In this document: positions 1-33,897 of the stretch, in pieces | How the letters are laid out: each line of letters starts with the position of its first letter | Numbering within the stretch: the first letter of the stretch is position 1 | Assembly (NCBI GenBank): GCA_945869475.1 | Contig: CAMBOV010000020.1 | Coordinates: 1-33,897, forward strand | Direction of reading: 5' to 3' | Source: Singulisphaera sp. GP187 | GTDB lineage: Bacteria; Planctomycetota; Phycisphaerae; Phycisphaerales; SM1A02 | Length of the DNA stretch: 33,897 nt | Position numbers and translations under genes: made by a program | Notes under the pieces: generated by a model | Databases searched by the model: none | What the model was told of the DNA's origin: nothing | Seen by the model: only the letters and a program-made list of their open reading frames with translations

Positions 1-102
1 GAGCACTTCACCAGCAGCTGCGGATGGCTTCTCGCGGTCGGTGACAAACGCAACATTTGGCGCGACGGGAGTTCCACGTTTGGTGATGACGATGGCTTTC
101 AT
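1..102 (-). CDS. MDR-family (zinc/quinone) oxidoreductase, N-terminus only
   Basis: The minus strand starts at ATG 102 and runs off the window edge after 34 residues, beginning MKAIVITKRGTPVAP. This resembles the first beta strands of medium-chain dehydrogenase/reductase proteins (alcohol dehydrogenase or quinone oxidoreductase type), which often start MKAIVI and reach a GEVLV segment near residue 30. The visible piece ends GEVL. The cofactor-binding domain and any zinc ligands lie outside the window, so subfamily and substrate cannot be judged. A TATAGA box sits 8 bases upstream with no Shine-Dalgarno, so the message is probably leaderless. It is divergent from the DUF1573 gene, and the two start codons are only about 23 bases apart. 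Confidence 0.6.
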   Translation of the reverse strand, partial: MKAIVITKRGTPVAPNVAFVTDREKPSAAAGEVL

Positions 103-110
103 GGTGCGTC

Positions 111-116
111 TCTATA
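111..116 (-). promoter_or_regulatory. -10 box of the MDR gene
   Basis: TATAGA read on the minus strand, 8 bases before ATG 102. It overlaps by four bases the -10 box of the divergent DUF1573 gene. No -35 element is evident. Confidence 0.5.
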
Positions 117-118
117 GT
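113..118 (+). promoter_or_regulatory. -10 box of the DUF1573 gene
   Basis: TATAGT, 7 bases before ATG 126 and only 1 base before the alternative ATG 120. This spacing favours 126 as the start of a leaderless message. Confidence 0.5.
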
Positions 119-125
119 AATGCTC

Positions 126-1193
126 ATGCACCTTCGCCCTCTTGCACTCGTGTTGTTCGTTCTCGCGACTTGCGCGTGTGAGCCAGTGACCCCCGCGACG
201 GTCATCGCCGACCCCCCGTCGATCTCACTTGGATTCCTCGAGCCGCGCGCATCGGTGACTCGCACGTTTCGGCTCGTCAACACCGGCAGCACGCCTGTGA
301 CGATCGTCTCTGCAACTCCAACGTGCACCTGTACGACGCTCGAGGCTGCCGGAAAGGTCATCCCGGCTCAAGGAAGTGTCGAGATCCCAGTCACAATGAA
401 GGTCTCCGCCTCAACAGGAGTCAAGAGTGCTTCGGTGTCATTCGTATTGTCAGGTGGATCGCCTCCTGTGACCGTCGTGATGAGCGGCGAGATCGCGTAC
501 GCCGTGCGCGCAACGACCATGGATAAGAGCAACAACGCGCGCGTGCCGTACATCAACGCATTTCAAGATCCTGCGGCTCCAGTTGGCAGCGTCGTGCCTC
601 CTCTCGATGGCACGGTCACAATTGCATCGATCGATCAACTGCCATTCACGATTCAGTCGGTGATGAATGCGCCTCCGACGTTTGTTGGATTCGATCCGGC
701 GCGAGAGCGTGCGCGAAACTCATACGAAGTGCGTTACGACTTTTCGAAAGTGCCCTGTGATCAGGTGCCACCCTACCTCATGATCGCGACGGACCATCCA
801 AAGGCCCCGGTCATTGACATGCGCGTGCGCCACCTGTGCACGAAAATCGCGCCGCAGATTCCATTCGCTGAGTACCGGGCGAACCTCGGGGCTATGACGG
901 TCGGCGTTGCACTGCCCTTTGAGTTCGAACTCAAACATTCTGCAGGATGGCACGTCATTGAGACGGTCTCGAGAGACCCACGCATCACCGTGAAGTACCT
1001 CTCGCAACAGTCTGACAAAGAGACGTCGATGATCTCGCTTGTGGCCGTTGCGAGCGACGCTGCGCATGGAGTCGTGCTCGCGCCGGTGACAATGACCGCG
1101 ACGGGTCCAGATGGCGCGAAGCGGTCGAGTGATTTCTGGGTCTACTGCGTTGTGGCGACTCGAGCAGCGGACTCTCAAAAACTCGGATCGTAA
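126..1193 (+). CDS. DUF1573 domain-containing putative lipoprotein
   Basis: A 355-residue exported protein. The N-terminus MHLRPLALVLFVLATCAC is a hydrophobic signal with Cys at 16 and 18, so a lipoprotein is likely, although the lipobox is imperfect. Around residues 30-120 the segment FRLVNTGSTPVTI followed by PTCTCTT is characteristic of DUF1573, an immunoglobulin-like beta-sandwich domain common in secreted proteins of Bacteroidetes and planctomycetes. The remaining 230 residues look like further beta-rich repeats without a recognisable catalytic motif. Its molecular role is unknown; members are assumed to be envelope or surface proteins. The start at 126 was chosen because TATAGT lies 7 bases upstream; ATG 120 would add two residues. 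The stop overlaps the convergent malic enzyme stop by 19 bases. Confidence 0.8.
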   Translation: MHLRPLALVLFVLATCACEPVTPATVIADPPSISLGFLEPRASVTRTFRLVNTGSTPVTIVSATPTCTCTTLEAAGKVIPAQGSVEIPVTMKVSASTGVKSASVSFVLSGGSPPVTVVMSGEIAYAVRATTMDKSNNARVPYINAFQDPAAPVGSVVPPLDGTVTIASIDQLPFTIQSVMNAPPTFVGFDPARERARNSYEVRYDFSKVPCDQVPPYLMIATDHPKAPVIDMRVRHLCTKIAPQIPFAEYRANLGAMTVGVALPFEFELKHSAGWHVIETVSRDPRITVKYLSQQSDKETSMISLVAVASDAAHGVVLAPVTMTATGPDGAKRSSDFWVYCVVATRAADSQKLGS

Positions 1194-2845
1194 ACCTTGC
1201 TGCGCACAAACTGATCGATGTCGCCCGGTTGCGGCACGCGTGCAAGCTTGTTCTCGAAAATGAACCGCGCAACAGCGATGGCAACCTCGATGCTCGTCTC
1301 GAGAATCGATGAGATCGGCGGATAGATGAGCCCAACGGAGAGATCTTGTTCGGTGGTCTGCGAGGCAAGCGACTCGGCGGCACGCAAGAACATCGCGTCG
1401 GTGACACGGCTCGCCTGCGTCGCGTAGATCGCCATCCCAACCGCTGGATAGATGTAGACGTTGTTTCCCTGACCGGGCACAAAGAGTTTGCCGCCGTAGT
1501 GCAGCGGAGCGAATGGACTGCCACTGGCGACAATCGCGCGACCCTCGGACCAACGAATTGCCTCGTCCGCGGTGCACTCTGACTTCGACGTCGGATTCGA
1601 AAGCGGAAAGATGATCGGTCGTGTGTTCAGTCGTGCCATCGTTCGCACGACTCGCTCATTGAACGCGTGCGCGACCGTCGAGACTCCAATGAGTGCCGTT
1701 GGACGCACAGTTTCAACGATGTCGGCAAGATCGAGAAGTGGCGAGTCGACCCCCGCGCGAGCGCTCGGTGGAATCGTGAGATGCGAGATGTCATGTGCGT
1801 ATCGCTGCAGGTAATCGGGAAGGTTGGGCATCTTTGCGTGCACCATTCCGCGCGAATTCACGAACCAGCACTTGCGGATCGCATCGGCCTCGCAGTAGCC
1901 ATCCGACATGAGTTGTGTGACGAAGAGATCTGCGATTCCAACGCCGGCGCTGCCCGCTCCCATGAAGAGCAAGATCTGTTCACGCATCGGCTTCTGCACG
2001 ATGCGACAGGCGCCAAAGAGACCCGCGACCGCAACGGATGCCGTGCCTTGGATGTCGTCGTTGAAGCAGCAGACGTTGTCTCGATACCGGCGAAGCAGCG
2101 GCGTGGCGTGTTTGTTTGTGAAGTCCTCAAACTGGATGCAGCAGTGTGGGAAGACTTCTTGCACGGCATCGACGAACTCGTCGACGAACGCGAAGTACTC
2201 ATCTCCGGAGATGCGTGGCATCTTGAGCCCGGGATAGAGCGGGTCGGCGAGAAAGGATGCGTTGTTCGTGCCAACGTCGAGAACAATTGGAAGTGTCACT
2301 TCGGGAGGGACTCCAGCGCATCCTGTGTAGAGCGCGAGCTTTCCAACTGGGATTCCCATTCCGCAGACGCCCTGATCACCGAGCCCCAAGATGCGTTCGC
2401 CATCGGTCACGACGATGATGCGCACCTCCTTGATTGGCCAATTGCGAAGCACATTCGCGAGCGTGCCCTTGCGCTTGATTGAGAGGTACATGCCCTTGGG
2501 TCGACGCAGAATGTGTCCAAACTTCTGGCACGCTTCGCCGACGGTCGGCGTGTAGACAATTGGCATATACCGTTCGAAATCACTGCGCAGCAAGGCGTAG
2601 AAGAGTCGCTCCTGCCGATCCTGGAGTGCCGAGAGATATTGATACTTCGCGAGGTCTGATCCTTGAGCGTCGAACTGAAGTCGCGCTCGATCGAGCTGAA
2701 TCTCGAGCGGCTCAATTCCGTCGGGGAGCAACCCGACGAGTCCAAGTTGTTCGCGCTGTTCTTCAGTGAACGCGCCACCGAGATTCAGTCGTGCGTCTGT
2801 GAGTGTTCGAACCGCGGTGGATGCTTCGCTGCGTGCTTGTGCCAT
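1175..2845 (-). CDS. maeA: NAD-dependent malic enzyme
   Basis: Oxidative decarboxylation of malate to pyruvate and CO2 with reduction of NAD(P), in the cytoplasm. The 556-residue length matches the large malic enzyme family (about 540-580). Visible motifs: YTPTVGEACQKF near residues 98-109 with the catalytic Tyr; GIPVGKLALYTGCAGV with the catalytic Lys near 169; FEDF near 239-242 and FNDDIQGTA near 261-269, which supply the metal-binding Glu/Asp; the Rossmann signature GAGSAG near 297-302; and PLSNPTSKSE near the C-terminus. The NAD rather than NADP preference is inferred from overall similarity to the MaeA type. An in-frame TTG at 2878 would add 11 residues, but ATG 2845 has a TACTCT box 7 bases upstream. 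It is divergent from the SprT-like gene. Confidence 0.95.
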   Translation of the reverse strand: MAQARSEASTAVRTLTDARLNLGGAFTEEQREQLGLVGLLPDGIEPLEIQLDRARLQFDAQGSDLAKYQYLSALQDRQERLFYALLRSDFERYMPIVYTPTVGEACQKFGHILRRPKGMYLSIKRKGTLANVLRNWPIKEVRIIVVTDGERILGLGDQGVCGMGIPVGKLALYTGCAGVPPEVTLPIVLDVGTNNASFLADPLYPGLKMPRISGDEYFAFVDEFVDAVQEVFPHCCIQFEDFTNKHATPLLRRYRDNVCCFNDDIQGTASVAVAGLFGACRIVQKPMREQILLFMGAGSAGVGIADLFVTQLMSDGYCEADAIRKCWFVNSRGMVHAKMPNLPDYLQRYAHDISHLTIPPSARAGVDSPLLDLADIVETVRPTALIGVSTVAHAFNERVVRTMARLNTRPIIFPLSNPTSKSECTADEAIRWSEGRAIVASGSPFAPLHYGGKLFVPGQGNNVYIYPAVGMAIYATQASRVTDAMFLRAAESLASQTTEQDLSVGLIYPPISSILETSIEVAIAVARFIFENKLARVPQPGDIDQFVRSKVYDPSF

Positions 2846-2852
2846 TTCGAAG

Positions 2853-2858
2853 AGAGTA
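2853..2858 (-). promoter_or_regulatory. -10 box of the malic enzyme gene
   Basis: TACTCT on the minus strand, 7 bases before ATG 2845, without a Shine-Dalgarno. It helps decide the start against the upstream TTG at 2878. Confidence 0.45.
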
Positions 2859-2890
2859 GGTTCTGCGCAGAATTGCAAGAGTCGGAGGGC

Positions 2891-2896
2891 TAGACT
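2891..2896 (+). promoter_or_regulatory. -10 box of the SprT-like gene
   Basis: TAGACT, 6 bases before ATG 2903; no Shine-Dalgarno and no good -35. Confidence 0.45.
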
Positions 2897-2902
2897 CAGC
2901 CC

Positions 2903-3562
2903 ATGTCGCGCGCAGCTGCCCGCACCCCTCTCTCGCCAGCGTGGCCCGATGAACTTTCAATTGAGTTGCGCGACGCCGTGCGCGGTTGGTGCATTCTCTG
3001 GGGCGTCGAGAAACTCGACTCAGAAGTCACCGTCGCAGTCAGCCGCCGACTGACGACAAGCCTCGGCCGCGCTCACTACCAGCGCAAACTCGTGACGTTG
3101 CAGGCGACCTTGCTCGACCCGACTGCGAGCGAATTGCTGCGCGAGGTTCTTTGCCACGAACTCGCGCATCTCGCGGCGTACGAATTGCATGGCCGAGCGA
3201 TCCGCCCCCATGGTCGGGAGTGGAAGGCACTGCTTGTGAGTGCGGGCTATCACCCCAATGTCACCTACCGAGCTGAGAATTTGCCGGCGTGCTTTGGCGA
3301 GCGCACGCCGCGGCGGCGAAAGCGCACCACACGCAAGCGTCGATCACTTCATCACATTGCCCATGCGCTGCTCGTGAATCGCAGCGTCTTGCTCGCGACC
3401 GACGATTCGAAGGGCCTGGGAATAGCTGATGCCAGCGCGGTACCAGTTGCTCTGCTTGGAAAACTGTGGAGCGATATCCACCGGTACTTCCATCGCACGA
3501 AAGGCGCGGTCATGCAAGGTCACGTTCGCGCGCGCGTCGTTGTTCAACGCGAGAATCGCTGA
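2903..3562 (+). CDS. SprT-like zinc metalloprotease-family protein
   Basis: A 219-residue protein with the SprT-like signature: CHELAHLAAYELHG gives an HExxH-type zinc site (HELAH, residues 85-89), and PHGREWKALL supplies the third histidine near 103, as in the SprT/Spartan family. The Cys-rich zinc ribbon found at the C-terminus of many SprT proteins is absent; instead residues 134-147 are a basic Arg/Lys run. The last 73 codons (3344-3562) lie antisense to the end of the convergent transglutaminase-like gene, so the tail may be non-conserved read-through to the first available stop. The substrate is unknown; bacterial SprT proteins are little studied, and relatives in eukaryotes cut DNA-crosslinked proteins. 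Confidence 0.8.
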   Translation: MSRAAARTPLSPAWPDELSIELRDAVRGWCILWGVEKLDSEVTVAVSRRLTTSLGRAHYQRKLVTLQATLLDPTASELLREVLCHELAHLAAYELHGRAIRPHGREWKALLVSAGYHPNVTYRAENLPACFGERTPRRRKRTTRKRRSLHHIAHALLVNRSVLLATDDSKGLGIADASAVPVALLGKLWSDIHRYFHRTKGAVMQGHVRARVVVQRENR

Positions 3563-5344
3563 CGCTTCGAGCAGTGCGACGATCGCAAAGGGGCCATCGT
3601 TTGGATAGCGATCGAGAATCATCTCGTAGCACCGTCCAGAACCTGCGAGGTTGCCTTGTGCCTTGTAGAGCGAAGCCTGTTGAAGCAAGATCTGCCCCGC
3701 AAGATCGCCTCGATCTTGAAAAATCGCGAGCGCGCCGTCGAGCGCTTCTTGGCGCTTGGCGATGTCGGTGATCGAGTGAATCATCGGTGCGATCGTCCGC
3801 CACGCAAACTCTGGATAGTCATCACCGCACATTTGCAAGACGTCTGCCGACCAGATCTCTTTCTGCTCGGTTGTCATTCCCCCCGTCGCTGCGGCGCGTC
3901 CGACGAGTTCCCAAGCACGCGTGTCAGTCAAGCACGCGTGCACCGCGATGCGTACGAGCGCAAGAGCTTGATCGACTGCCTCGGGCGAGACTTTTGTTGG
4001 CGGGGGCGTTGTCGGCGTGGTCGTTGTCGGCGGGGTCGTTGCGACTGGAGTGAGTAACTTCTCGGCGGCGATACGAAGCGCAGTTGCTGCGGTGCGATCT
4101 GCGAGTGGCTCAAGTCCATACTCGACCAACATCGGCATCTGCGTATTGGAGAGTTGCTGTCCACTCTGCGGATCGCGGATGAATCCTTCAACGCTCTGGT
4201 AGCCGCCGAAGCGGCCTACTTCGTCCCACTGGGGTCGACGGCCTGCCTTGCGCACGAAGCCAATCCACGCGTGCGAGAGCACGCCATCGGTGGCCGTTGA
4301 ATAGACGCAGGGAACTCCAATCGACTTGCCCACGGTCGTCGCGAAGTACGCCTGATCGGCGCAGATTCCACCGTACCGCAGGATGTTTGGAAGATTCCAC
4401 CCGGCAACGTTGACCTTCTTGGGGGATCCCTTCTCGAGATTGTCGAAATCGTATGCGACCTCGTCGTAGAGCTCGCCCACCGATGCGTGGCCTGCGTAGG
4501 TGCGCAACGCCCATGCCATTTCGTCGGCCGTCGCCGCGATGTCGACGACATAGAGCAGCAATTCGGGAGCGATGCCTCGCACGCCGAAACTCAACTTTCG
4601 CTCGGCAGAGACGAAGTGATCAAACGTGACGAGTGGTCCAGCACTCTGTGCGAGATTCTCATTGACCTGCATCAAGACCGGTGCGTCATGCACGACGGCG
4701 ATCGCAGCGGCGAGTTCGGGAAAGCTTTCGAGCGCCTCGCTGCGCTGGGCCATCAACATGCGCGCGAGTCGATCAACCTTCGCGGCGTCTTCATCTTGCA
4801 AATCGACGAGCATTGAGAGTGTCCGCGCAAACTTCGGATGCGCGAGATACTCCTGCGCGAGTGCGCTGCGCTCACCCTCGGGCGCTGCCGCGATCAGTCG
4901 AGACAACTGCCAGGTCGCGGCACTCTTCGCGAGTACGTCGAGTTTTTCTTTCCGCGCCGGCGACAGCCCCTGACGCTTCGCTGCTCGCGTTGTTGAGCGT
5001 TTCGCGGGCTTCGCATCTTTCTCTGGTGGAGAAATCTTCGGCTGCCACGCGAGCAGAAACTCTTGTGTTCCTTGATCGATTGCAGTCGAGCAGTGACCGC
5101 TCACCGCGAGTGCATCGGCACCTCCCATCGCAATCGAGTTGATCGCCGTCTCGCCCACCTCACCGAAGAGACGTTGAAACTCGCCGACGAGCGGTGCGCC
5201 CCCGGTGGCGGGTTTTGCTTTCGATGCGTTCTGATGCGTCGCGGTCTGGTTCGCGGCGGATGCGCTCGCACACACCGTTGCGACAAACAGGATGAACGCA
5301 CTGCCCAAAGATGTGGCGACGAGTGAGCGCACATGCTCACTCAC
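3344..5344 (-). CDS. Secreted transglutaminase-like protein with TPR-like C-terminus
   Basis: A 666-residue exported protein. The start is GTG 5344, forming a GTGA overlap with the stop of the upstream lipoprotein gene; it places a signal peptide (hydrophobic SLGSAFILFVATV, then ASASA) at the N-terminus. An alternative GTG lies at 5332. Residues 130-320 are mainly helical. The segment GGICADQAYFATTVGKSIGV (Cys 328) followed by SHAWIGF (His 358) matches the Cys-His core of the transglutaminase-like/cysteine protease fold. A Pro-Thr-rich linker (about 432-451) precedes a helical, TPR-like C-terminal third. Whether it is a protease, a cross-linking enzyme or inactive cannot be told. It is a distant paralogue of the protein at 31360-32631. 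Its 3' end overlaps the convergent SprT-like gene by 219 bases. Confidence 0.75.
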   Translation of the reverse strand: MSEHVRSLVATSLGSAFILFVATVCASASAANQTATHQNASKAKPATGGAPLVGEFQRLFGEVGETAINSIAMGGADALAVSGHCSTAIDQGTQEFLLAWQPKISPPEKDAKPAKRSTTRAAKRQGLSPARKEKLDVLAKSAATWQLSRLIAAAPEGERSALAQEYLAHPKFARTLSMLVDLQDEDAAKVDRLARMLMAQRSEALESFPELAAAIAVVHDAPVLMQVNENLAQSAGPLVTFDHFVSAERKLSFGVRGIAPELLLYVVDIAATADEMAWALRTYAGHASVGELYDEVAYDFDNLEKGSPKKVNVAGWNLPNILRYGGICADQAYFATTVGKSIGVPCVYSTATDGVLSHAWIGFVRKAGRRPQWDEVGRFGGYQSVEGFIRDPQSGQQLSNTQMPMLVEYGLEPLADRTAATALRIAAEKLLTPVATTPPTTTTPTTPPPTKVSPEAVDQALALVRIAVHACLTDTRAWELVGRAAATGGMTTEQKEIWSADVLQMCGDDYPEFAWRTIAPMIHSITDIAKRQEALDGALAIFQDRGDLAGQILLQQASLYKAQGNLAGSGRCYEMILDRYPNDGPFAIVALLEASAILALNNDARANVTLHDRAFRAMEVPVDIAPQFSKQSNWYRAGISYSQALRIVGREQDAAIHEQRMGNVMK

Positions 5345-5709
5345 TTGCTCGCTCGATTCCAGAGTTGATCCATAAGCGCGCGACGCTCGACACAAGTGTC
5401 GGCAGGCTCGGACGCGACGAGTGTCGATGCATCGACCGTCCACGTGTATTCGCCCGGCTCTTGCGGACAGTGCGCAACGCCGATTTGGTAGCGCATCGTG
5501 ATGCGCTCCTGCACGAACGAACAACGACCGACCAGCGTGGTGCCATCCTTGAGTTCGATGACGAAAATTCCAGTATCGGTCATTTCAAGGATCGCGCCAT
5601 CCTTTGAACCCTCCCACCTTCCAACCGCCAGCGCCGGAACCATTGGCAGGGGCAACGTTTTGCACGCGCAGATGAACAGAAGTGCCGCCGCTGCGAAAAA
5701 TTTTCGCAC
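5341..5709 (-). CDS. Small putative lipoprotein, lipocalin-like
   Basis: A 122-residue protein if GTG 5709 is used; this places RKFFAAAALLFICACK as a lipoprotein-type signal with Cys 16 as the likely lipidated residue. The reading frame stays open to ATG 5823, which would add 38 residues that do not look like a signal; a TACACT box 8 bases before that ATG is the argument for the longer form. The mature part (VGRWEG, IFVIELKDGTTLVGRC, then CVERRALMDQLW) alternates short beta strands and may be a small beta barrel. No family was recognised with confidence. Its stop overlaps the GTG of the transglutaminase-like gene (GTGA), so the two are probably translated together and may act together in the envelope. 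Confidence 0.6.
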   Translation of the reverse strand: MRKFFAAAALLFICACKTLPLPMVPALAVGRWEGSKDGAILEMTDTGIFVIELKDGTTLVGRCSFVQERITMRYQIGVAHCPQEPGEYTWTVDASTLVASEPADTCVERRALMDQLWNRASK

Positions 5710-5889
5710 TCGGTGGGCAGTTATCTGCCGCGGCGACTGCTCGCCGGCGAACCCTTCAGTTGTTTGTCTTTCAACGACTTGCGTCGCGCGGCGAGCACGG
5801 GTGCACATCAAAGGGCGAACCATATGGTCGCAGTGTAGAGGGGTATTTTGGAAGCATCGCTTGCACCTGGGGGATTGAATTGGACCTTT

Positions 5890-5988
5890 TATCTAAGACC
5901 ATCGGAGCGGAGAGGTTTCGCAACAAACCCGAAGGCATGCATGGCGGATCGGTTCACCTCAGCGGGAACCGATCCGCCAGCATTTTTT
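5890..5988 (+). ncRNA. Candidate small RNA ending in a strong terminator
   Basis: No convincing gene lies between the two minus-strand genes here, yet the plus strand carries a small hairpin (GGTTT 5914-5918 / AAACC 5925-5929) followed by a 14-bp perfect terminator stem and six T. The run of T is only on the plus strand, so something must be transcribed in that direction, antisense to the flanking genes. The 5' end is uncertain: possible -10 sequences are TTTTAT at 5887 and TATTTT at 5844. No known RNA family was recognised. Confidence 0.4.
5942..5988 (+). terminator. Rho-independent terminator
   Basis: Perfect stem GGCGGATCGGTTC (5943-5955) / GAACCGATCCGCC (5966-5978), extended by a T-A pair at 5942/5979, with a 10-base loop and T at 5983-5988. 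On the minus strand no T-run follows the stem. Confidence 0.8.
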
Positions 5989-5998
5989 GCCACCCACA

Positions 5999-6556
5999 TC
6001 ACCTCGTCGAGGCGCGTGCTGGCTTGGGAAGACCTTTGTCGCGATCGCTTTTGGGGGTCACGGCTGCGATCGAATATCCATGCTCTTCAAGAAACTGCGC
6101 GCGCTCAGTGGGTGACGCGTAGTGCTGCTGAAAGAGTTCACGCTCGCGCGCTCCCCCACCGCCGATCAAGTCAATGAACTCGTGCACGCCCGCATCGGCG
6201 GGAAGGTCGCGCACGGGCTCGACCAAAATGTGCTCGAGAAGCCGCACGTACAGCTCGCGATCGGTCAGATGGTTGGTGTGCACAAGAAAAATTCCAAGTT
6301 CGCCCAGCGCCGTCGTGACGTGCGCGAGCGACTCGGTCACGTCGTGGTCGCTGAGCAGGAAGGCGCAGAGCGGATGAACGCCTGCCTCCTGAAGTTGCGT
6401 GAGATTCGTCGTCATCGGAGCGTGTTCGAAGTCGTAGATCAGCGTCCAATAGAGTCGATCTTCACACCCGCCGTTCGCGACCGCCTCGGCGATGAGTTGG
6501 TCGATTGCTCGGGTGCGAAATTGTCGTTTGTTTTCCTGAATGTCAGTAAGTTTCAT
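5999..6556 (-). CDS. Hypothetical protein, 185 aa
   Basis: Not recognised. The protein is acidic to neutral and soluble-looking, has no signal peptide or membrane segment, and has a basic, disordered-looking tail (PKSDRDKGLPKPARASTR). Notable stretches are DRLYWTLIYDFEHAPMTTN and HTNHLTDRELYVRLLEHIL. A predominantly alpha-helical fold is suggested. The start at ATG 6556 is supported by AAAGGAA about 6 bases upstream, one of only two clear Shine-Dalgarno sequences in the window. It lies downstream of the beta-mannosidase gene on the same strand with a 102-base gap and may or may not be part of that transcript. The coding call rests on the long clean frame, the ribosome site and plausible composition. 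Confidence 0.65.
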   Translation of the reverse strand: MKLTDIQENKRQFRTRAIDQLIAEAVANGGCEDRLYWTLIYDFEHAPMTTNLTQLQEAGVHPLCAFLLSDHDVTESLAHVTTALGELGIFLVHTNHLTDRELYVRLLEHILVEPVRDLPADAGVHEFIDLIGGGGARERELFQQHYASPTERAQFLEEHGYSIAAVTPKSDRDKGLPKPARASTR

Positions 6557-6658
6557 CGGTGGTTCCTTTGCGGATCGGAATGACCCTCGCGAAACCTATG
6601 AGCGCGCCGATGGCGCTCTGCCAAAGCCTCCCTTTTTTCTTGAGACCCACGCGGCGCG

Positions 6659-9220
6659 TCACACTGTGGCGATGCGCCGTCCCGCTGCGAAGAGTTCGAT
6701 CGCGCACGGATTACCGCGCCACGTGACCTCGACGCGCTGCTCGCCACCCGTTGGAATCGAGAACAACATCGGTTCGACTGAGAGCCAGTCACCCAAAGGG
6801 CTCACAATCCCATCGACCAGTGGCGTCGTCGCAGTGACGCTCAACGTCGCAACGAACACATCACCCCGCCTCGCGGGAGCACTCACCCACGTGACTTCCG
6901 CGCGTGGAGTCACGGGCGATCCATTGGTGGATCGCATCTCGCGTTCGTGCACCGACGCGTACCAGGCCGTTGCAAGTGGGTCACTTCGAATCTCAGTGGG
7001 CGCTTCAACAAAGAGCACGGTCGTCGCATCAGGGATGAACTCTGCAGGCACCGTGAGAATGCGCGCAGCAGACCAGGGTTCGACCGTGAATCCCTCTTCG
7101 AAGAGGCGGCGATGCGACGGTTGCATCGCAGAACCCTCGGCGACGTGCGTGCAGATCTCGAGCGCGAGGCGACTCTTCCACGCTCGTGGGGTGTCGTTCA
7201 CTGCCTCGACGACGAGCTGTGAATCGCGCGGATGGATCGTGAGCATCCGCGGCGCGCACGCAGCTCGCACCGCGTGCCACGCTGGTTTCGCGCGACCCTG
7301 CGCATCAACCAATGACCACGAGTGACCCGTCCACGCATCATTCATTTGCCAGACCAGCGCGCCCGAGCAGTGGGGACGGTTCGCGCGAAGCCACGTGTAT
7401 GCGATGCGCATCGCCTTCGCTTGCACCGACTGCGCTTGCGCGATCCACGTTGCGAAGTCTTGCGCTGCGGCGAAGCGATCGCTCAAGAGTTGACCGTACT
7501 GTCCATCGTCACCGCTCGAGGCTCGTTGTCGCGAGACGATTCGCGCGCATCCCTCAGCGGCCGTGAGCGACGCGAGTTCGCGCGCATCTTCGCCCAGCGC
7601 ATGCGCGATCGTCTGCAACGCGGGTGGTGACTGATGTCCAAACTCACTTGCGAATCGCGGCGTCACTGAGCGCAGTCCCTCAACTTTCGCGTCGGCGTCC
7701 CATGTGTGACGATCTCCTCGCATCTCGTCATTGGGATGCAACTCGAGCGAACCCGACCATGGACTCTCGCACCAATAGGGACGTGTCGGATCGATCGCCG
7801 CGCAGAGTCGCGGAAGAAGTTCGAGCCAGTAGTGACGTCCCCACGGCTGCCCGGCGACGAGTCGATCACGAAATCCCCATGAAGACCAGGCAAGAATGTC
7901 TTCGTTGCCACCACACCAGAGCGCGACCGATGGGTGCGAGGCGAGTCGCGCGAGTTGAAAACGCGCTTCACGCTCGATCAATGCTGGAAATGGATCGTTC
8001 TCGGGATAGGTCGCGCACGCGAAGGCGAAGTCCTGCCAGACCAGCAGCCCAAGCTCGTCACACCGCGAGTAAAAGAAGTCTGACTCATACCCGCCACCAC
8101 CCCACACACGAAGCATCACGAAGTTCGCCTCGCACGCTTGCATCAGTCGGTCGAGCACCTTTGACTCGGTTGCGTCCATCCGATTGAGTCCCTCGGGAAT
8201 CCAATTCGCACCCGCACACCAGATCAACTGATCATTCACTCGGATCGCAAATCGCGTTCCGTCGATCTCGGGTGTGGTGTCGAGTGCGACCGAGCGAAGG
8301 CCGATGCGTCCACTCCAGCGCGCACTGGTCACTGAGCGCACTGAGAGCTCGACCGTGACTCGGTGTAGTTGCTGTGCACCGTATCCACGCGGCCACCACC
8401 GCTGCGGATTTGGAATCTCAACAACGCAGTGCGCCGTTCCGGTGCGTGCCACCGAGGCGACGGCAGTGAAGAGCCGTCCATCGGGCGATTCGATTTCAAT
8501 CTGTGCCTCGCACTTCGTCGCGTCGCCATCGCACACGGTGTCGACAAACACTTCGACGCACGCAGCACTCGGCGTGCAGCGAGTCACGAGAGGGCGAACC
8601 GCTGCGATGCGCGATCCGGTCCACGCATACAAGAAGACGAGGTCGACGATGCCGCTCGACGGAGCGCGCGGCCCCCAATCCCACCCGAAATCGCACGCGG
8701 GTTTTCGCATGAAGACGTAGGGAGCCCAGTCGCCGTTGACTGGACGCGATCCAAGTTCGCGCTCAATGCGCTCGATTTCAGCGAGCGGCGCGGCGCAGCG
8801 CACCTCGAGGTTGAATTCATGATCGACTGCGCGTGCTGCGACGCGCGCGCGCAGGTCGATTCGGTGCGGATGAAAGTGATTCGCAACGGCGAGCACCAAC
8901 TCGCCATCCATGAAGACCTCCGCCACAGTATCGATCGATTGAAAGACCAGATCGAGATGCGCGTGCCCACGCAATTCTGCCGAGACTCGAAAGGATCGCC
9001 GCCACGAGAACGCCGCTCGCCCAACCCAGAGTTGCGCCGCCTCTCCGTGTGCGGCGTCGACCGTTGGAATCACTCCCGCACGCTGCAGATCAAGGTGCGC
9101 GCAACCTGGAACATGCGCCGCGAAAGTGCGCCCATCCGGTGCGGTCATTGTCCACCCGTCGCCGCAGAGACTCTCTTCAATGGGGCGCATCGGTGAACGC
9201 TCAGCGCGTCGGCGACTCAT
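6659..9220 (-). CDS. Beta-mannosidase, glycoside hydrolase family 2
   Basis: Removes terminal beta-mannose from mannan- or glycan-derived oligosaccharides. The 853-residue length fits GH2 mannosidases. In order: N-terminal jelly roll (about 15-190) with MRKPACDFGWDWGP, a beta-mannosidase hallmark; immunoglobulin-like domain (about 195-315); TIM barrel (about 325-640) with LRVWGGGGYESDFFYSRCDE; acid/base Glu 440 in WCGGNED; nucleophile Glu 526 in ASEFGHQSPP; and a C-terminal beta domain. No signal peptide is obvious, so it is probably cytoplasmic, acting on sugars brought in by the symporter encoded just upstream. The start at 9220 overlaps that gene by 20 bases; ATG 9190 (residue 11) is an alternative and neither has a Shine-Dalgarno. 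Confidence 0.92.
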   Translation of the reverse strand: MSRRRAERSPMRPIEESLCGDGWTMTAPDGRTFAAHVPGCAHLDLQRAGVIPTVDAAHGEAAQLWVGRAAFSWRRSFRVSAELRGHAHLDLVFQSIDTVAEVFMDGELVLAVANHFHPHRIDLRARVAARAVDHEFNLEVRCAAPLAEIERIERELGSRPVNGDWAPYVFMRKPACDFGWDWGPRAPSSGIVDLVFLYAWTGSRIAAVRPLVTRCTPSAACVEVFVDTVCDGDATKCEAQIEIESPDGRLFTAVASVARTGTAHCVVEIPNPQRWWPRGYGAQQLHRVTVELSVRSVTSARWSGRIGLRSVALDTTPEIDGTRFAIRVNDQLIWCAGANWIPEGLNRMDATESKVLDRLMQACEANFVMLRVWGGGGYESDFFYSRCDELGLLVWQDFAFACATYPENDPFPALIEREARFQLARLASHPSVALWCGGNEDILAWSSWGFRDRLVAGQPWGRHYWLELLPRLCAAIDPTRPYWCESPWSGSLELHPNDEMRGDRHTWDADAKVEGLRSVTPRFASEFGHQSPPALQTIAHALGEDARELASLTAAEGCARIVSRQRASSGDDGQYGQLLSDRFAAAQDFATWIAQAQSVQAKAMRIAYTWLRANRPHCSGALVWQMNDAWTGHSWSLVDAQGRAKPAWHAVRAACAPRMLTIHPRDSQLVVEAVNDTPRAWKSRLALEICTHVAEGSAMQPSHRRLFEEGFTVEPWSAARILTVPAEFIPDATTVLFVEAPTEIRSDPLATAWYASVHEREMRSTNGSPVTPRAEVTWVSAPARRGDVFVATLSVTATTPLVDGIVSPLGDWLSVEPMLFSIPTGGEQRVEVTWRGNPCAIELFAAGRRIATV

Positions 9221-11234
9221 CGGCGTTCACGCCATCGATGACTCGACCATCGTCGCGCACATCAACGCTGCGCGCACGAAGAACGCGCACCATTCGGATG
9301 ACGTCACGAATGCCGCCCGATGTGAACCAGACAACAACGACAACGCTCGTGCCCAGAATCAACCACGTCCACCAGAACCACCAGGTGCTCCACGAGGCAG
9401 GCGTGATCGGGTCAGCGCATGATTTTCGCCAGAGGGCGTAGATCGTTCCGACCACAAAGAGCAGTGTGAAGAAGAGCGGCCACGCGAGTGTCACAAGTGT
9501 GACCGCGCGATCGGTGCCCTTGAATTGGCTGTCCATTCCGAGTTTTTCGAGGAATGTTGTTGGTGCGGCATCGATCGATGCATCGCCTTCAACCCGCCAG
9601 CGACCACGGTTGAGCATTCGATTGAGATCGAAATCGGTGCGCGGTCCCAAAAGACTCACGCCGATGTACATCGCGCTCGCGCTGATCATCGAGATGAAAC
9701 CCATCACTTGGCCGGTGACATTCTCGCGCAGAGAAATTGCCGCGCCACACAATTGCGCCTGCATTCCAAGAGCGTCGACTTCGCTGAGCCACCGATCAAG
9801 AGGCAGTTGATGTACGAGCACGCCACCCGCCGCGAGCAGCATTCCAGTCACCATTGCCGCCCATGCACCCTGCGTCGAACCACGCGTCCAGTAGAGCCCC
9901 CCGATGATTGCAGCGCCCGCGCCCGCAACAAAGATGCTCGCGGTGAGCGCGGCGAACATCGCGATGTACTGCGTCGGTTCATAAAGCATCGAAAAGGTGA
10001 ATGCGAAGAGTGCGACTCCGAGCGCGGCAAGTTTCAGCAAGAACGTGTGCACTTTCGGATCGAAAGGCTTCTTTCGAAAGGGCAGGATCACATCCTGAAT
10101 GAAGATCGACCCCCACGAGTGCAGATAGGCCTCGTCGGTCGAGACGGCCGCTCCCAACATCGCTGCGATGAAGAGTCCCAAGATTCCCGTGGGAAGCATC
10201 ACTGCCATCGCGAGCGGCGTGCGCAACTCAGATCGAAGCGCGTCATTCGTCACCTGATCGAGCGCCGCATGCACGGGCGCTGCAGCTTCGGCGTACTCGG
10301 GCTGCGTCAAAAAGGCGCGCACCGCGAGAGGAATGATGATCGTGATGAGCATCAACACGCGGTAGCGCCATCCATTGAGAATCTGCGCCATGCGCGCCTC
10401 GTGAGCATTGAGTGGTGCGGCGTTGTAACCCTGGTCGCCCTGCCACGCGCGCGCGGCATAGAAGAGCACGAATGCCGAGATCGCCCAATAGAAAATATCG
10501 AAGTTCTTTTCGCGGGCCAACCCAAATGGATCGACAAACGATGTGCCCTCGGGCATCGCGAGCATCGCTCGTTCAAGGACTGGCCACGGAAACTGCGCCA
10601 TCAACCAGAAGCAGATGAAGACGAAGGTTCCAAAGCAGAAGACTCCCTGCAAGAAGTCGGTCAGGATGATCGAGACCATTCCGCCTGCGAACACCATGAA
10701 TATGCCTAGCGCGAGCAGGCAGACCATCACGATCGGAAAGACTGCGATCGACTCTCCCGCGAGCATGAATCGTTCGGGCATTCCGCAGAGTGCCATGAAG
10801 AAGCGTGCGGTCACTCCGGGAAAGATTCCATAGTTGATGATGCCCGAGACGAACGCGACGCCTCCCGACATCACTCGAAAGCGCTTCGAATAGCGCAATT
10901 CGAAGAACTGCGCGAGCGTCATCGCGCGCGTTTCACGAAATCGATAGATCACCCATCCAGTTATTGCAAGAAGAATCAGGGATGGCCCCTCGAAGTATCC
11001 CCACCAAATCTGCGTGAAACCCACGTCGTATCCGAGTTGAAAATACCACACGAGCGTGATCACCCCGACCTGTGCCATGTTGTAGGCAACAGTCACGAGA
11101 TACCTGCCGGCGCAACGATCCGCGGTGAGAAAGCCCGAGACGCCGCGCGAAAGCGAGTTTGCGAGGATCGCCGTCGCGATCAACACGCCGACGAATGCGA
11201 TCACAATTGACCAGTCGAGCGTTGACGGCGTCAT
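9201..11234 (-). CDS. Sodium:solute symporter (SSS family)
   Basis: A 677-residue integral membrane protein with about 13-14 hydrophobic segments. It begins TLDWSIVIAFVGVLIATAIL and shows the family-like pattern of SGFLTADRCAGRYLVTVAYN followed by MTLAQFFELRYSKRFR. SSS transporters couple uptake of sugars, amino acids or vitamins to sodium entry. Its 3' end overlaps the beta-mannosidase start, so a mannoside or mannose-containing oligosaccharide is the inferred substrate; the sequence itself does not show specificity. The gene is longer than the common 500-residue transporters, with an extra soluble stretch and two further membrane segments near the C-terminus. The start ATG 11234 has TAGTCT 8 bases upstream. 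Confidence 0.9.
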   Translation of the reverse strand: MTPSTLDWSIVIAFVGVLIATAILANSLSRGVSGFLTADRCAGRYLVTVAYNMAQVGVITLVWYFQLGYDVGFTQIWWGYFEGPSLILLAITGWVIYRFRETRAMTLAQFFELRYSKRFRVMSGGVAFVSGIINYGIFPGVTARFFMALCGMPERFMLAGESIAVFPIVMVCLLALGIFMVFAGGMVSIILTDFLQGVFCFGTFVFICFWLMAQFPWPVLERAMLAMPEGTSFVDPFGLAREKNFDIFYWAISAFVLFYAARAWQGDQGYNAAPLNAHEARMAQILNGWRYRVLMLITIIIPLAVRAFLTQPEYAEAAAPVHAALDQVTNDALRSELRTPLAMAVMLPTGILGLFIAAMLGAAVSTDEAYLHSWGSIFIQDVILPFRKKPFDPKVHTFLLKLAALGVALFAFTFSMLYEPTQYIAMFAALTASIFVAGAGAAIIGGLYWTRGSTQGAWAAMVTGMLLAAGGVLVHQLPLDRWLSEVDALGMQAQLCGAAISLRENVTGQVMGFISMISASAMYIGVSLLGPRTDFDLNRMLNRGRWRVEGDASIDAAPTTFLEKLGMDSQFKGTDRAVTLVTLAWPLFFTLLFVVGTIYALWRKSCADPITPASWSTWWFWWTWLILGTSVVVVVWFTSGGIRDVIRMVRVLRARSVDVRDDGRVIDGVNADESPTR

Positions 11235-11242
11235 CGATACGA

Positions 11243-11248
11243 AGACTA
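11243..11248 (-). promoter_or_regulatory. -10 box of the symporter/mannosidase operon
   Basis: TAGTCT on the minus strand, 8 bases before ATG 11234; no Shine-Dalgarno. Confidence 0.4.
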
Positions 11249-11292
11249 GTGGTTCGCGCGTCGATCGACGGCGCCGAGTTCGCGTGATCCCC

Positions 11293-11298
11293 TACTCT
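11293..11298 (+). promoter_or_regulatory. -10 box of the redoxin/xylulokinase operon
   Basis: TACTCT, 7 bases before ATG 11306; no Shine-Dalgarno. Confidence 0.45.
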
Positions 11299-11305
11299 TG
11301 ATCCC

Positions 11306-11926
11306 ATGAGATCGCTTTGCTCTGTCGCACTCACACTCTGCTGCGCGCTCGCTGCGGCGACTGGTTGCAAAGCGCCGACGATCATCGCTCCACCGCCGCC
11401 TGGATCGATCTTCGACGCATCGACACTTCCACAACTCGATCTCGATGGACGACCACTCGTCAGCGGCCGCCTCGCAACGGTCTACTATTTTGCAGGACCC
11501 GAGTGCCCAATCGCGCGCTCGTACGCGCCTGAAGTTTCGCGACTCTCGCAGCGTGATGAACTGCGCGGAATCGCATGGGTGATGGTCTTCTCTGAGGTGG
11601 GCATGACCAAAGCACTCGTGCAGAATTTTCAGCGCGACTACGCGCTTGCGATCCCATCGCTTATCGACTCGTCGCAGCATTTCGCGTGTGCGATGGGAGC
11701 GCAGGTGATTCCGTCGGTGGTGGTGGTGGACGCACGCGGCACGCTGCTCTACCGAGGTCGCATTGACAATCGCTACCAAGCACTCGGGCTCTCCTATGGA
11801 CCGCCCACCGAACGCGACCTCGCGGCTGTCGTCGATGCGATCGCGAGTGGATCACCTCTCGCACCCGCGCAGACTGCAGCAATTGGATGCCTCTTGTCGC
11901 CGTGCACGACTTTCGCACAACCATGA
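11306..11926 (+). CDS. Redoxin-domain lipoprotein (thioredoxin fold)
   Basis: A 206-residue lipoprotein: the signal MRSLCSVALTLCCALAAATGC ends in a good lipobox (ATGC, Cys 21). Residues 45-180 form an AhpC/TSA-redoxin-like domain with a single cysteine in GPECPIARSYAPE (Cys 67) rather than a CxxC pair, and the cis-proline region GAQVIPSVVVVDARGTLLYR (Pro 136). This resembles the redoxin domains seen in planctomycete exported proteins with a CPIA motif and a conserved late cysteine (here GCLLS, Cys 195), so the partner thiol may be that late Cys. The role is probably thiol redox at the outer face of the membrane. The stop overlaps the xylulokinase ATG by ATGA. Confidence 0.8.
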   Translation: MRSLCSVALTLCCALAAATGCKAPTIIAPPPPGSIFDASTLPQLDLDGRPLVSGRLATVYYFAGPECPIARSYAPEVSRLSQRDELRGIAWVMVFSEVGMTKALVQNFQRDYALAIPSLIDSSQHFACAMGAQVIPSVVVVDARGTLLYRGRIDNRYQALGLSYGPPTERDLAAVVDAIASGSPLAPAQTAAIGCLLSPCTTFAQP

Positions 11927-13455
11927 CGCGAGCACCACTTTGCATTGGTCTCGACGTCGGCACGAGTTCGCTCAAGGCGGTCGCGGTCGACGCGCATGCC
12001 GTGGTCGTGGCGAGCGCAGTGGTTGAGTATCCGTATGAAACTCCCCAGCCTGGATGGGCGCAGACTGATCCTGAAGTTTGGTGGAACGCCACGTGCGCAG
12101 CGTTGAGGCAACTCCTTCGCGAACCTGCCGTCGCAGGCGCGCCGATCGAATCAATCGGGCTTAGTGGGCAGATGCATGGACTCGTGCTCGTCGACAGCGA
12201 TGGCGCGCCAACGGGTCCCGCGCTGATGTGGAACGATCAACGCACCGATGCCGTCTGCGCGCGCGCAGAGCGCGAGATCACCGCAGAGCGCATCTGGCAA
12301 CTCACCGGCAATCGACTTTTGCCTGGATTTACTGCACCAAAGTTGCTCTGGTTGCGCGAGCATGAGCCCGATCGCGTGCGTCGCGCACGCACGCTGATGC
12401 TTCCAAAGGACTTCGTTCGCCTACGACTCACTGGCGCGTTCCACACCGATGTCTCAGACGCTTCGGGCACGCTGCTCTTCGATTGCGCGAACCGACGGTG
12501 GTCGAGCGAGATGTGCGAGGCTCTTGCGATCAAGTGCGATCTGCTTCCAGAGGTTTTCGAGTCGATCGCCGCCAGTTCGCATCTTCACGCGGCAGGCGCC
12601 GCCGCCACTGGACTTCCACATGGCACCCCCGTCGTTGCAGGCGCTGGCGATCAAGCGGCGCAAGCTGTTGGCACAGGAATCGTCGATGAAGGATGCGTCG
12701 CCTGCACCGTTGGAACTAGCGGCGTGATCTTTGCCACGACCAATGGATGGCGCCCCACTGCGCGCGGAACATTGCACGCCTTCTGTCATGCGATCCCGAA
12801 TCGCTGGCACTTGATGGGAGTGACGCTCTCTGCGGGTGGCAGTCTGCGTTGGTGGCGCGACACGATGTGCGCCGATCTCGTCGCGCGAGCCCGCGCAGAA
12901 AACGTCGATGCATATGACCTCATGCTCGCCGAGGCGGCGTGCGCTCCTGCAGGATGCGAAGGCGCGATCTTCTTGCCCTACCTCTCTGGCGAGCGCACTC
13001 CGCACGCCGATCCCTTCGCGCGCGGCGTTTTTCTGGGCATTTCGACGCGCACGACCCGCGGCCATCTCACCCGCGCGATCATCGAAGGTGTCACCTGTTC
13101 TCTCGCGCAGGTTATGAATCTCGTGCGCGAGAGCGGCGCGACGACCCAGCACGTGCGCCTCTCAGGAGGTGGATCGCACAGCCCACTCTGGCGACAACTC
13201 CTCACAAACGCGCTGGGCGTTCCATCGGCGACGGTGGCTCAACCGCATGGTGCGGCGTATGGCGCCGCACTTCTTGCTGGCGTCGGAAGTTCAGTGTGGC
13301 CATCCATTGACGCAGCGACTGCGACGATCACTGAATCGAATCAGTGCTCGGTCGAGAGTGCATCAAACGAGTTCGCCGCGATCGCCGCGCGATATGCCGA
13401 TGCCTATGAGTCGCTCGCTCCGTGGTTTCGCCGCGGCGCCGCGCAGAGCGTCTAG
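11923..13455 (+). CDS. xylB: Xylulokinase
   Basis: Phosphorylates D-xylulose to xylulose 5-phosphate. The 510-residue length matches the FGGY kinase family. Visible motifs: phosphate-binding GLDVGTSSLK (residues 9-18), the xylulokinase-specific GLSGQMHGLV (about 79-88), MWNDQRT, DVSDASGTLLFD, GAGDQAAQAVGTG with the catalytic Asp near 243, and LSGGGSHSPLWRQ near the C-terminus. ATG 11923 was chosen because it forms an ATGA overlap with the redoxin stop and puts the kinase motif at the expected distance; an ATG at 11887 would add 12 unlikely residues. The product feeds transketolase, encoded 10 kb away. No xylose isomerase gene is in the window. Confidence 0.95.
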   Translation: MTRAPLCIGLDVGTSSLKAVAVDAHAVVVASAVVEYPYETPQPGWAQTDPEVWWNATCAALRQLLREPAVAGAPIESIGLSGQMHGLVLVDSDGAPTGPALMWNDQRTDAVCARAEREITAERIWQLTGNRLLPGFTAPKLLWLREHEPDRVRRARTLMLPKDFVRLRLTGAFHTDVSDASGTLLFDCANRRWSSEMCEALAIKCDLLPEVFESIAASSHLHAAGAAATGLPHGTPVVAGAGDQAAQAVGTGIVDEGCVACTVGTSGVIFATTNGWRPTARGTLHAFCHAIPNRWHLMGVTLSAGGSLRWWRDTMCADLVARARAENVDAYDLMLAEAACAPAGCEGAIFLPYLSGERTPHADPFARGVFLGISTRTTRGHLTRAIIEGVTCSLAQVMNLVRESGATTQHVRLSGGGSHSPLWRQLLTNALGVPSATVAQPHGAAYGAALLAGVGSSVWPSIDAATATITESNQCSVESASNEFAAIAARYADAYESLAPWFRRGAAQSV

Positions 13456-13458
13456 CAT
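13453..13458 (+). promoter_or_regulatory. -10 box of the small membrane protein gene
   Basis: TAGCAT, 6 bases before GTG 13465. Its first three bases are the xylB stop codon. Confidence 0.35.
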
Positions 13459-13464
13459 TCGGCT

Positions 13465-13689
13465 GTGCTCCACGCGCTCTCACTGTTCATCTTCGTCGTC
13501 AGCATGATTGCTGTTGGAATCGTCGTCTGGAAGGTGACGAAGTTTCAAGAGTCACGCGATTCAAAGTTTCAGGCGCGGCTCGATGCGGATGATGTTCGCG
13601 CGCGACTCGGGCGCGAGGCGAAGGCGCAGCAGTTCAACGAACCGATCGATTCGAAGTCATCCCCCACCGACCCGACCCCATCGCCTTAG
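13465..13689 (+). CDS. Small single-pass membrane protein
   Basis: 74 residues starting at GTG: MLHALSLFIFVVSMIAVGIVVW is one membrane span, followed by a charged stretch (KVTKFQESRDSKFQARLDADDVRARLG) that could form a short coiled coil, and a Ser/Pro-rich tail. No family was recognised. It follows xylB by 9 bases and may be co-transcribed, but it also has its own TAGCAT box. Its stop overlaps the convergent amidase stop by 4 bases. Confidence 0.6.
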   Translation: MLHALSLFIFVVSMIAVGIVVWKVTKFQESRDSKFQARLDADDVRARLGREAKAQQFNEPIDSKSSPTDPTPSP

Positions 13690-14432
13690 GCGATCGCTCG
13701 GCGAATCCCGCTCATTTTCGACTGTAGATTTCGACCAGGGCAGGCAGTCTTGGCGCTCGCCCACTCTTGGTGAGAGAGCACCGACGAAGCCTTCACCTTG
13801 TACTTCGCGCGACAGACGCGCAGATGACGGTCAAGCGCGGCGAGTTGCGCCATACTGGGACTCTGCTGATCGAAGTTGCCCACGCACAGAATCCCGAGAT
13901 TGCCTTCGTTCTGATCCTTGACGTGAGCCCCCTGATAACGCAGATCGCGACCCTCCCAGACGCGTCCCGATCGGTCGATCACGAAGTGGTAACCAATGTC
14001 GGCCCATCCCTTGCCTCGATGTCCATTGCGAATCAACTCAATGCGCGAAGCGCACGATGAAAAGTCTGTCGCCGAGAATGGAGACATGCCGTCGTGGTGA
14101 ATGGTGATCCACTTGACCGGCAGCATCGGATCGATGTTTCCCACTTGCGGGGTGGCCTTCGTCCATGAACTGCGCGGAATCACTCCAGCGAGCGTCGGCG
14201 TCGGTGGCGGCACTTTGATCGGCGCAACAACAGCCGGCGGGGCAAGCAACGATCCATCTGGCCAGATCGGACTCGGCAGCCGCGCACTCTTCGATCCCGC
14301 AGTTGCACACCCGGCAAAGAGTCCAAGTCCAAGCATCAAGATGCTTCGGCGACCCACGGTTGATGCGACTTCCGTCATCGCAATTGAGGGTGTTGGAGTT
14401 GGCGAGTTGGGATCCAAATTTGGTTCGTCCAA
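13686..14432 (-). CDS. PGRP/N-acetylmuramoyl-L-alanine amidase lipoprotein
   Basis: Cleaves the bond between muramic acid and the stem peptide of peptidoglycan, or binds it, in the periplasm. The signal GRRSILMLGLGLFAGC has a twin arginine and a lipobox (AGC). After a Pro-rich linker, residues 85-245 form an amidase_2 / peptidoglycan-recognition domain: ITIHHDG gives the first zinc His, GYHFVIDRSGRVWEGRD is the conserved core, a His occurs in QGAHV, and LSHQEWASAKTACPGR contains the second zinc His and the zinc Cys. The frame opens with TTG 14432; ATG 14378 (residue 19) would give a shorter signal and is equally possible. Planctomycetes do contain peptidoglycan, so this is a reasonable housekeeping role. 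Confidence 0.85.
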   Translation of the reverse strand: MDEPNLDPNSPTPTPSIAMTEVASTVGRRSILMLGLGLFAGCATAGSKSARLPSPIWPDGSLLAPPAVVAPIKVPPPTPTLAGVIPRSSWTKATPQVGNIDPMLPVKWITIHHDGMSPFSATDFSSCASRIELIRNGHRGKGWADIGYHFVIDRSGRVWEGRDLRYQGAHVKDQNEGNLGILCVGNFDQQSPSMAQLAALDRHLRVCRAKYKVKASSVLSHQEWASAKTACPGRNLQSKMSGIRRAIA

Positions 14433-14501
14433 GAGTTCTGACTATCGACCCAAAACAACGCAGGGCTTCAATTTACGCCACCGCCGCGGGCGCGGTTCAG
14501 G

Positions 14502-14507
14502 TAGATT
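14502..14507 (+). promoter_or_regulatory. Possible gyrB -10 box
   Basis: TAGATT, 27 bases before ATG 14535. gyrB would thus have a short leader, unlike most genes here. A GAGG lies about 20 bases before the ATG, too far for a normal Shine-Dalgarno. Confidence 0.3.
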
Positions 14508-14534
14508 CACGAGGTTCTGCTTTCGCCAATAATC

Positions 14535-17766: not shown

Positions 17767-17774
17767 CGCTCTGA

Positions 17775-17780
17775 AGAATA
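17775..17780 (-). promoter_or_regulatory. -10 box of queC
   Basis: TATTCT on the minus strand, 8 bases before ATG 17766. Confidence 0.45.
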
Positions 17781-17793
17781 GAGCAATCGCCAC

Positions 17794-17799
17794 TAGGAT
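17794..17799 (+). promoter_or_regulatory. -10 box of the threonine aldolase operon
   Basis: TAGGAT, 7 bases before ATG 17807; no Shine-Dalgarno. Confidence 0.45.
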
Positions 17800-17806
17800 C
17801 GATCGA

Positions 17807-33655: not shown

Positions 33656-33897
<242 letters not shown>

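Follow-up and report, generated by a model that had tools for sequence, protein, structure and literature searches.

Which transcript, if any, would end at a long plus-strand terminator that lies between two minus-strand genes? This is the question raised by positions 5840 to 5990 of the window, as we call the whole stretch of 33,897 nucleotides analysed here. The nearest plus-strand gene upstream (SprT-like) ends at 3562, as the first-pass annotation rightly said when it proposed a stand-alone plus-strand small RNA of 100-140 bases at this place, with an antisense transcript as the alternative. Our analysis argues for the former, and we consider it very probable from comparative sequence data that positions 5895-5988 constitute an independent small RNA gene. 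Plus-strand transcription of this segment would give rise to an RNA of around 93 nt, in which a two-part hairpin at the 5′ side (P1/P2), with an unpaired A/C-rich strand, is followed by a long intrinsic-terminator hairpin whose loop has 10 nt (Table 1). A gene of its own, of ~93 nt, is favoured because the terminator is unique in the window, the RNA is conserved across this genus of uncultured freshwater planctomycetes, the fold covaries, G-U cells far exceed A-C cells on this strand and a promoter pattern precedes all 18 copies, which moreover have a common 5′ end.

Table 1. Predicted features of the small RNA locus and its surroundings (window coordinates).
Feature	Position	Strand	Basis
Divergent upstream gene, probable lipoprotein	5341-5823	-	LFICAC lipobox by eye; start codon uncertain
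AGTGTAGAG element (minus-strand reading CTCTACACT)	5832-5840		AGTGTAG retained in 12/18 genus copies, alignment read by eye
Putative -35 element TTGCAC	5861-5866	+	TTG in 18/18 genus copies
Putative -10 element GACCTT (form nAnnnT)	5883-5888	+	A at position 2 and T at position 6 in 18/18 genus copies
Putative small RNA gene, ~93-94 nt	5895-5988	+	Identity profile and covariance-model match 5895-5988; first base likely 5895 or 5896
Stem P1, CC.UCGG (5899-5905) with CCGA.GG (5929-5935)	5899-5935	+	95.4% of cells paired
Stem P2 inside P1, GCGGA with UUCGC	5907-5921	+	95.6% of cells paired; minimum-energy fold of the window RNA
Terminator hairpin with outer AUGC/GCAU extension, loop ACCUCAGCGG at 5956-5965	5937-5983	+	Covariation and unique 14-bp core
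T6 run, predicted intrinsic terminator	5983-5988	+	Sequence
Convergent neighbour gene, 185 aa	5999-6556	-	In 17/18 same-genus genomes, convergent with the RNA in each

The terminator itself is as first described, with a perfect 14-bp stem formed by TGGCGGATCGGTTC (5942-5955) and GAACCGATCCGCCA (5966-5979) around the loop ACCTCAGCGG (5956-5965), and with the T6 run beginning three bases past the stem on the plus strand. When both strands of the 33,897 bases were scanned for perfect stems of at least 12 bp followed by a T run, this was the single site found (listed twice by the scan, with a loop of either 10 or 12 bases), and 100 dinucleotide shuffles of the window yielded none. A looser consensus scan of positions 1-20000 recovered 19 terminator-like sites versus 17.7 expected, and therefore only the long stem is informative. 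Within the genus, a run of at least five Ts occurs near the 3′ end in 16 of the 18 copies, and the loop ACCUCAGCGG is identical in 13 of them. As a palindromic stem can serve both strands, and the one in the window sits directly past the stop of the minus-strand neighbour, the hairpin could simply end that gene or be a boundary element, with no separate RNA made. We regard such a reading as very improbable: the T run is restricted to the plus side, the hairpin is far from the neighbour gene in some genomes, the promoter pattern lies upstream of the RNA in every copy, and it is P1/P2, ahead of the terminator, that are most conserved (83.8% versus 75.4% identity).

A BLAST search with positions 5824-5998 as query against 60 relatives and the own genome matched 17 of the 18 same-genus genomes with E values no higher than 6.1e-7; in the 42 genomes of other genera nothing scored better than E 0.03. 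The window's named relatives are Phycisphaerales MAGs from deep Lake Baikal together with one filed under Singulisphaera. The same-genus exception, G017, is an 83% complete genome where the neighbour gene was not found either, and its covariance-model hits are weak (E 0.033 and 0.46). Once loci on the minus strand are reoriented, the alignment of the 18 copies (the own one among them) extends from an invariant AG at 5896-5897 down to the T run. Each of these 18 RNA-bearing genomes holds one full model match, accompanied in nine of them by opposite-strand echoes of the palindrome. Mean pairwise identity among the copies is 78.0% within the RNA, compared with 54.3% for the promoter stretch, 39.4% upstream and 31.8% downstream, so that conservation climbs at the predicted RNA start and drops past the T run. 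In this regard, the stand-alone RNA of the first-pass annotation is supported but its size has to be reduced to ~93 nt, as given by conservation, and its interval of 5844-5988 was too wide, since the conserved RNA covers 5895-5988 and positions 5861-5888 resemble its promoter. Plus-strand ORFs cross the RNA stretch, and in one genome of another genus (G023, of g6) the RNA precedes a plus-strand reading frame, which might suggest that the stretch codes for a small protein or forms the leader of a plus-strand gene downstream. However, the 18 copies share no start codon, their aligned RNA lengths (94 to 99) differ by single bases and the gene downstream of the RNA is convergent within the genus, so we give this coding or leader explanation hardly any credit.

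The TTG of the proposed promoter is found at 34 or 35 nt upstream of the aligned RNA start in the 18 copies. Between the TTG hexamer and the nAnnnT hexamer, 14 copies have a spacer of 16 nt and the other four one of 17; the distance of 6 nt from hexamer to start was preset in the script, and the A and the T are what was tested. The first position of the hexamer is mostly G, which makes for a weak match to TATAAT, and the GACCTT promoter was not listed by a consensus promoter scan. From this TTG/nAnnnT arrangement, which is the layout of sigma-70-type promoters, we infer that the intergenic gene has a promoter of its own, a reading made by sequence only. Further upstream, CTCTACACT is a possible -10 element of the divergent lipoprotein gene. 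A CAA-n-GACTTGCG stretch at 5772-5783, around 80 nt upstream of the -35 element of the RNA, is also retained in several genus copies and may be either coding or regulatory.

The fold of the RNA was examined by counting covariation in the 18 genus copies over a structure of 31 pairs taken from the window's own fold (554 cells). In this count, 95.3% of the cells are paired compared with a mean of 86.2% in shuffles, 14 of the 31 pairs are changed on both sides compared with 7.5 (51 cells versus 14.0), and the covariation score reaches 0.304 compared with 0.139. None of 500 shuffles was as high on any of the five covariation measures, a figure that is not to be taken as a probability because the shuffles do not preserve relatedness. 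The true register also exceeds all six slid registers, which reach a maximum of 53.4% paired, in a comparison that favours the unslid register as the structure was drawn from the window's own fold. Moreover, RNAalifold recovered from the same alignment the same three helices, that is, P2 inside P1 and the long terminator hairpin, with double changes in 10 of 26 pairs. Compensatory changes thus occur, and nearly all of their signal comes from the terminator helix, where 13 of 20 pairs show a double change in one or more sequences. P1 varies little, with no pair changed on both sides, and P2 shows one pair with a double change and one G-U pair kept in the 18 copies; being nearly invariant, both stems are therefore supported by pairing and by single-genome folds. 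In the latter, the window RNA has a z of -6.4 and nine representatives range from -2.8 to -6.4, two of them (G003 and G005) with a minimum-energy fold that lacks P1/P2 as drawn. Over the 18 copies, G-U cells amount to 48 versus just two A-C cells, which indicates an RNA read from the plus strand. As for the two stems pointed out in the first-pass annotation, the one of the terminator is conserved in relatives and covaries, but the small GGTTT/AAACC hairpin (5914-5929) is present in the letters of the window and is not conserved: both of its outer pairs are each broken in 11 of 18 copies, no pair is changed on both sides, and P1/P2 (5899-5935) are found instead.

The genes at either side of the RNA offer little annotation, as neither matches a Pfam or NCBIfam family at E 0.01, and the predicted structure of the 185-aa neighbour protein (mean pLDDT of 53.8) was too poor for a structure search. 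A divergent lipoprotein-like gene lies beside the RNA, with a tblastn match, in all 18 genus loci, and the convergent neighbour gene occurs in 104 of the 181 family genomes, 86 of these 104 being outside the genus. RNA and neighbour converge in the 18 genus genomes that carry both (own included) as well as in genera g62, g16, g2 and g55, and only 10 bp separate in the window the T run from the neighbour's stop codon. Such a layout could reflect an action in cis. The RNA would then act either on the neighbour, through an antisense 3′ end or transcriptional interference, or else on the divergent lipoprotein gene. With the stretch before the latter, taken as a fixed leader and not a mapped one, predicted pairing has a mean z of -0.85; 13 of the 18 genomes show a favourable lean and four of them reach -1.9 or lower, which is not decisive. 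Yet in some members of the genus several hundred bp lie between the RNA and the aligned portion of the neighbour gene, predicted pairing with the start region of this gene stays at the level of shuffles (mean z -0.26 over 18 genomes, with G004 alone at -3.6), and the candidates of g6 and g18 have RNA and neighbour on the same strand. A place so stable with an orientation so variable argues against action through overlap, and we consider a cis role quite unlikely. For the same reasons the antisense transcript initially entertained is disfavoured: the RNA may lie as close as 10 bp to the convergent gene or as far as several hundred bp from it, and in g6 (and in g18, if these are homologues) the RNA is on the neighbour gene's own strand.

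Two observations concern the leader of the neighbour gene. An TCATTCCGATCCGCA-GGA-like motif occurs there at 6557-6583, with variants before the same gene in G018, G014, G007 and G015, and shows no covariation with the RNA. The leader in the window also contains a 9-nt match, CCGATCCGC, which was discarded as a pairing site, given that in our reading motif and RNA stem do not change jointly across genomes.

How far the RNA extends beyond the genus was approached with the covariance model R1 in 181 genomes of the family, 162 of them outside the genus, where six genomes gave hits at E 0.01 or better (G204, G033, G019, G137, G023 and G133). The surroundings of the neighbour gene were then considered for 60 of the 86 non-genus genomes carrying it, some of these stretches being truncated by contig ends. 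Eleven of the 60 loci contained a model hit at E 0.0015 or better, distributed among g62 (one), g16 (two), g2 (two), g55 (three), g6 (two) and g18 (one); three further g18 loci (E 0.03-0.05) look similar by eye, and the remaining ones had no hit or weaker hits taken as chance. Family-genome hits that do not lie beside the neighbour gene (for example G154 with 23.0 bits, G172 with 22.6, G156 with 22.0, G017 with 21.2 and G065 with 20.6) show which bit scores, up to 23.0, chance or distant copies can reach. Nine of the 11 loci score above 23.0 bits, and the other two are G023 (22.9, or 27.1 in the family-wide run) and G152 (22.0). By this yardstick, we regard five genera as reasonably secure and g18 as tentative, and since equal-scoring hits occur away from the neighbour gene, the weakest homologues depend on their position. 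Being found beside the same gene makes homology likely though not proven, and weaker homologues of the RNA thus likely accompany this gene in five other genera, perhaps six.

The minimum-energy folds of the 14 non-genus RNAs all include a terminator-like hairpin and, in our reading, 12 of them a P1-like hairpin, whereas a clear T run is missing in six (G200, G152, G142, G133, G126 and G023). Most of these RNAs outside g18 have in common a GCGGAG-like P2 strand. Across the 14, the loop resembles GAGGG or GAGGU, apart from g62, where it is GCUCAGCGG, and the 5′ end of some of these RNAs may be longer. Among 400 genomes of the order, drawn evenly, the sole hit at E 0.01 or below outside the family was one of 66 nt in G407 (E 0.004), which we took as chance. 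Searches of more than 40 genomes were run with strict filters that lose weak matches, so that no hit in them does not equal absence. Regarding the wider alignments, those made by the model (A4 and A6) contain opposite-strand echoes of the palindrome, and those made with MAFFT appear, by reading, to misalign P1 between genera.

Does the RNA correspond to any known family? At gathering score, no Rfam 15 model matches the interval, and with permissive limits just two chance-level microRNA matches appeared, the best one at E 2.1 and on the other strand. The 6S RNA is likewise a conserved stand-alone RNA, but RF00013 matched neither the locus nor the own genome (the model matched just 5 of 14 control genomes), and the 6S RNA of this genome may be either absent or too diverged for the model. 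Furthermore, the 6S model spans 187 positions and the RNA described here is half that length, with its two ends unpaired and an intrinsic terminator at the 3′ end. The SRP RNA was discarded as well, as RF00169 does not match the locus and the SRP RNA of the own genome is on contig C11 (55.3 bits). The window holds another RNA gene at its end, a 16S rRNA (33660-33897, minus strand) that runs off the contig.

Some described RNAs invite comparison. According to PMC6234868, AbcR1 is a trans-encoded sRNA with an anti-Shine-Dalgarno part, and PmaR of Agrobacterium has a C-rich loop; compared by these descriptions, the likeness lies in a short RNA with an exposed loop, with ACCUC in 13 of 18 genus loops, and the differences are that ACCUC is lost outside the genus and that Hfq was not found in 31 genomes. 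The Rhodopirellula-1 motif (Weinberg et al. 2010, PMC2864571) is likewise a candidate structured RNA of Planctomycetes, and also of Proteobacteria, listed there without an Rfam number. Within the terms searched and among the matches listed, no description of this RNA was found in the open-access literature. By Rfam and the open literature, it would be a new RNA family of a known kind.

As regards function, we think it likely from the sequence features above that the gene has some role in trans. CsrB/RsmY-type RNAs, for example, titrate CsrA, and the RNA resembles them in being small, structured and part of a CsrA-bearing lineage, the CsrA model having matched 59 of 61 genomes, with one low-scoring copy (55.5 bits) in the own genome. 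In contrast to the CsrB/RsmY type, its GGA motifs are neither enriched nor conserved: the 18 genus RNAs contain 39 of them versus 35.7 in shuffles, three have none at all, and in each of the 14 outside RNAs the GGA count is reached by at least 14% of shuffles. A protein-titrating RNA such as a CsrA sponge is, in consequence, highly unlikely. On CsrA itself we observed that 33 of the 42 other-genus relatives have at least two matches, usually one strong-scoring and one divergent (the copy of the own genome, G000, is at C18:20592-20756), and that the single representatives of g2, g6 and g18 that were searched, like the own genome and 17 of the 18 others of its genus, show a divergent copy only.

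A mechanism of trans pairing is what we tentatively put forward, with more doubt than confidence. The exposed parts of the RNA, namely the loop ACCUCAGCGG, with its ACCUC, and the CAACAAAC strand, would pair with mRNAs in trans, and this would proceed without the help of Hfq or ProQ. Neither protein was detected in 31 genomes (own, 18 same-genus and 12 of other families) with models that matched, respectively, 5 and 1 of 14 control genomes, which makes pairing independent of both our best guess; a guess, in turn, that derives from the anatomy of the RNA and from the lack of better-supported alternatives. The ACCUC of the loop resembles the 16S anti-Shine-Dalgarno. The complement of this putative seed is, however, not enriched before ATG codons: over 19 genomes, CGCTGAGGT-N2-10-ATG occurs 76 times (in four genomes not at all) versus 43 for the reversed and 153 for a rearranged seed, a weak test since base composition and codon use differ between the patterns. 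Among 30 of the 76 sites that were read, two recur in two genomes each (G012/G011 and G014/G006), preceding short frames of 16 aa and of 58 and 22 aa that we do not regard as gene starts. Among the listed matches, the same 17 letters are also seen in G014, G003 and G015, where the copy of G015 precedes a frame of 17 aa, and the same 20 letters in G010 and G008. With a loop identical in only 13 of 18 copies and ACCUC lost outside the genus, one seed shared by all is unlikely.

A more daring interpretation would see here a new RNA family that occurs in six or more genera of the planctomycete family f1 and acts without Hfq and ProQ, with the terminator loop as pairing seed and with a loop switched between Shine-Dalgarno-like and anti-Shine-Dalgarno-like forms among lineages. 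The former type would be the GAGGG/GAGGU loops of the other genera except g62, and the latter the ACCUCAGCGG loop of 13 of 18 genus copies. We hold this whole scenario to be unlikely; if true, the RNA changed its target class and yet kept its scaffold and its genomic place.

Few sRNAs are annotated in this part of the bacterial tree: the Rfam-based Table 1 of a 2022 review counts 8 distinct annotated sRNAs in the PVC group versus 345 in Proteobacteria (PMC9029176). The RNA presented here would exemplify RNA regulation in bacteria whose genomes, as searched, yielded neither Hfq nor ProQ. Its full conserved transcription unit, its fixed position in the genome and the covariance model built for it allow a direct search in metatranscriptomes.
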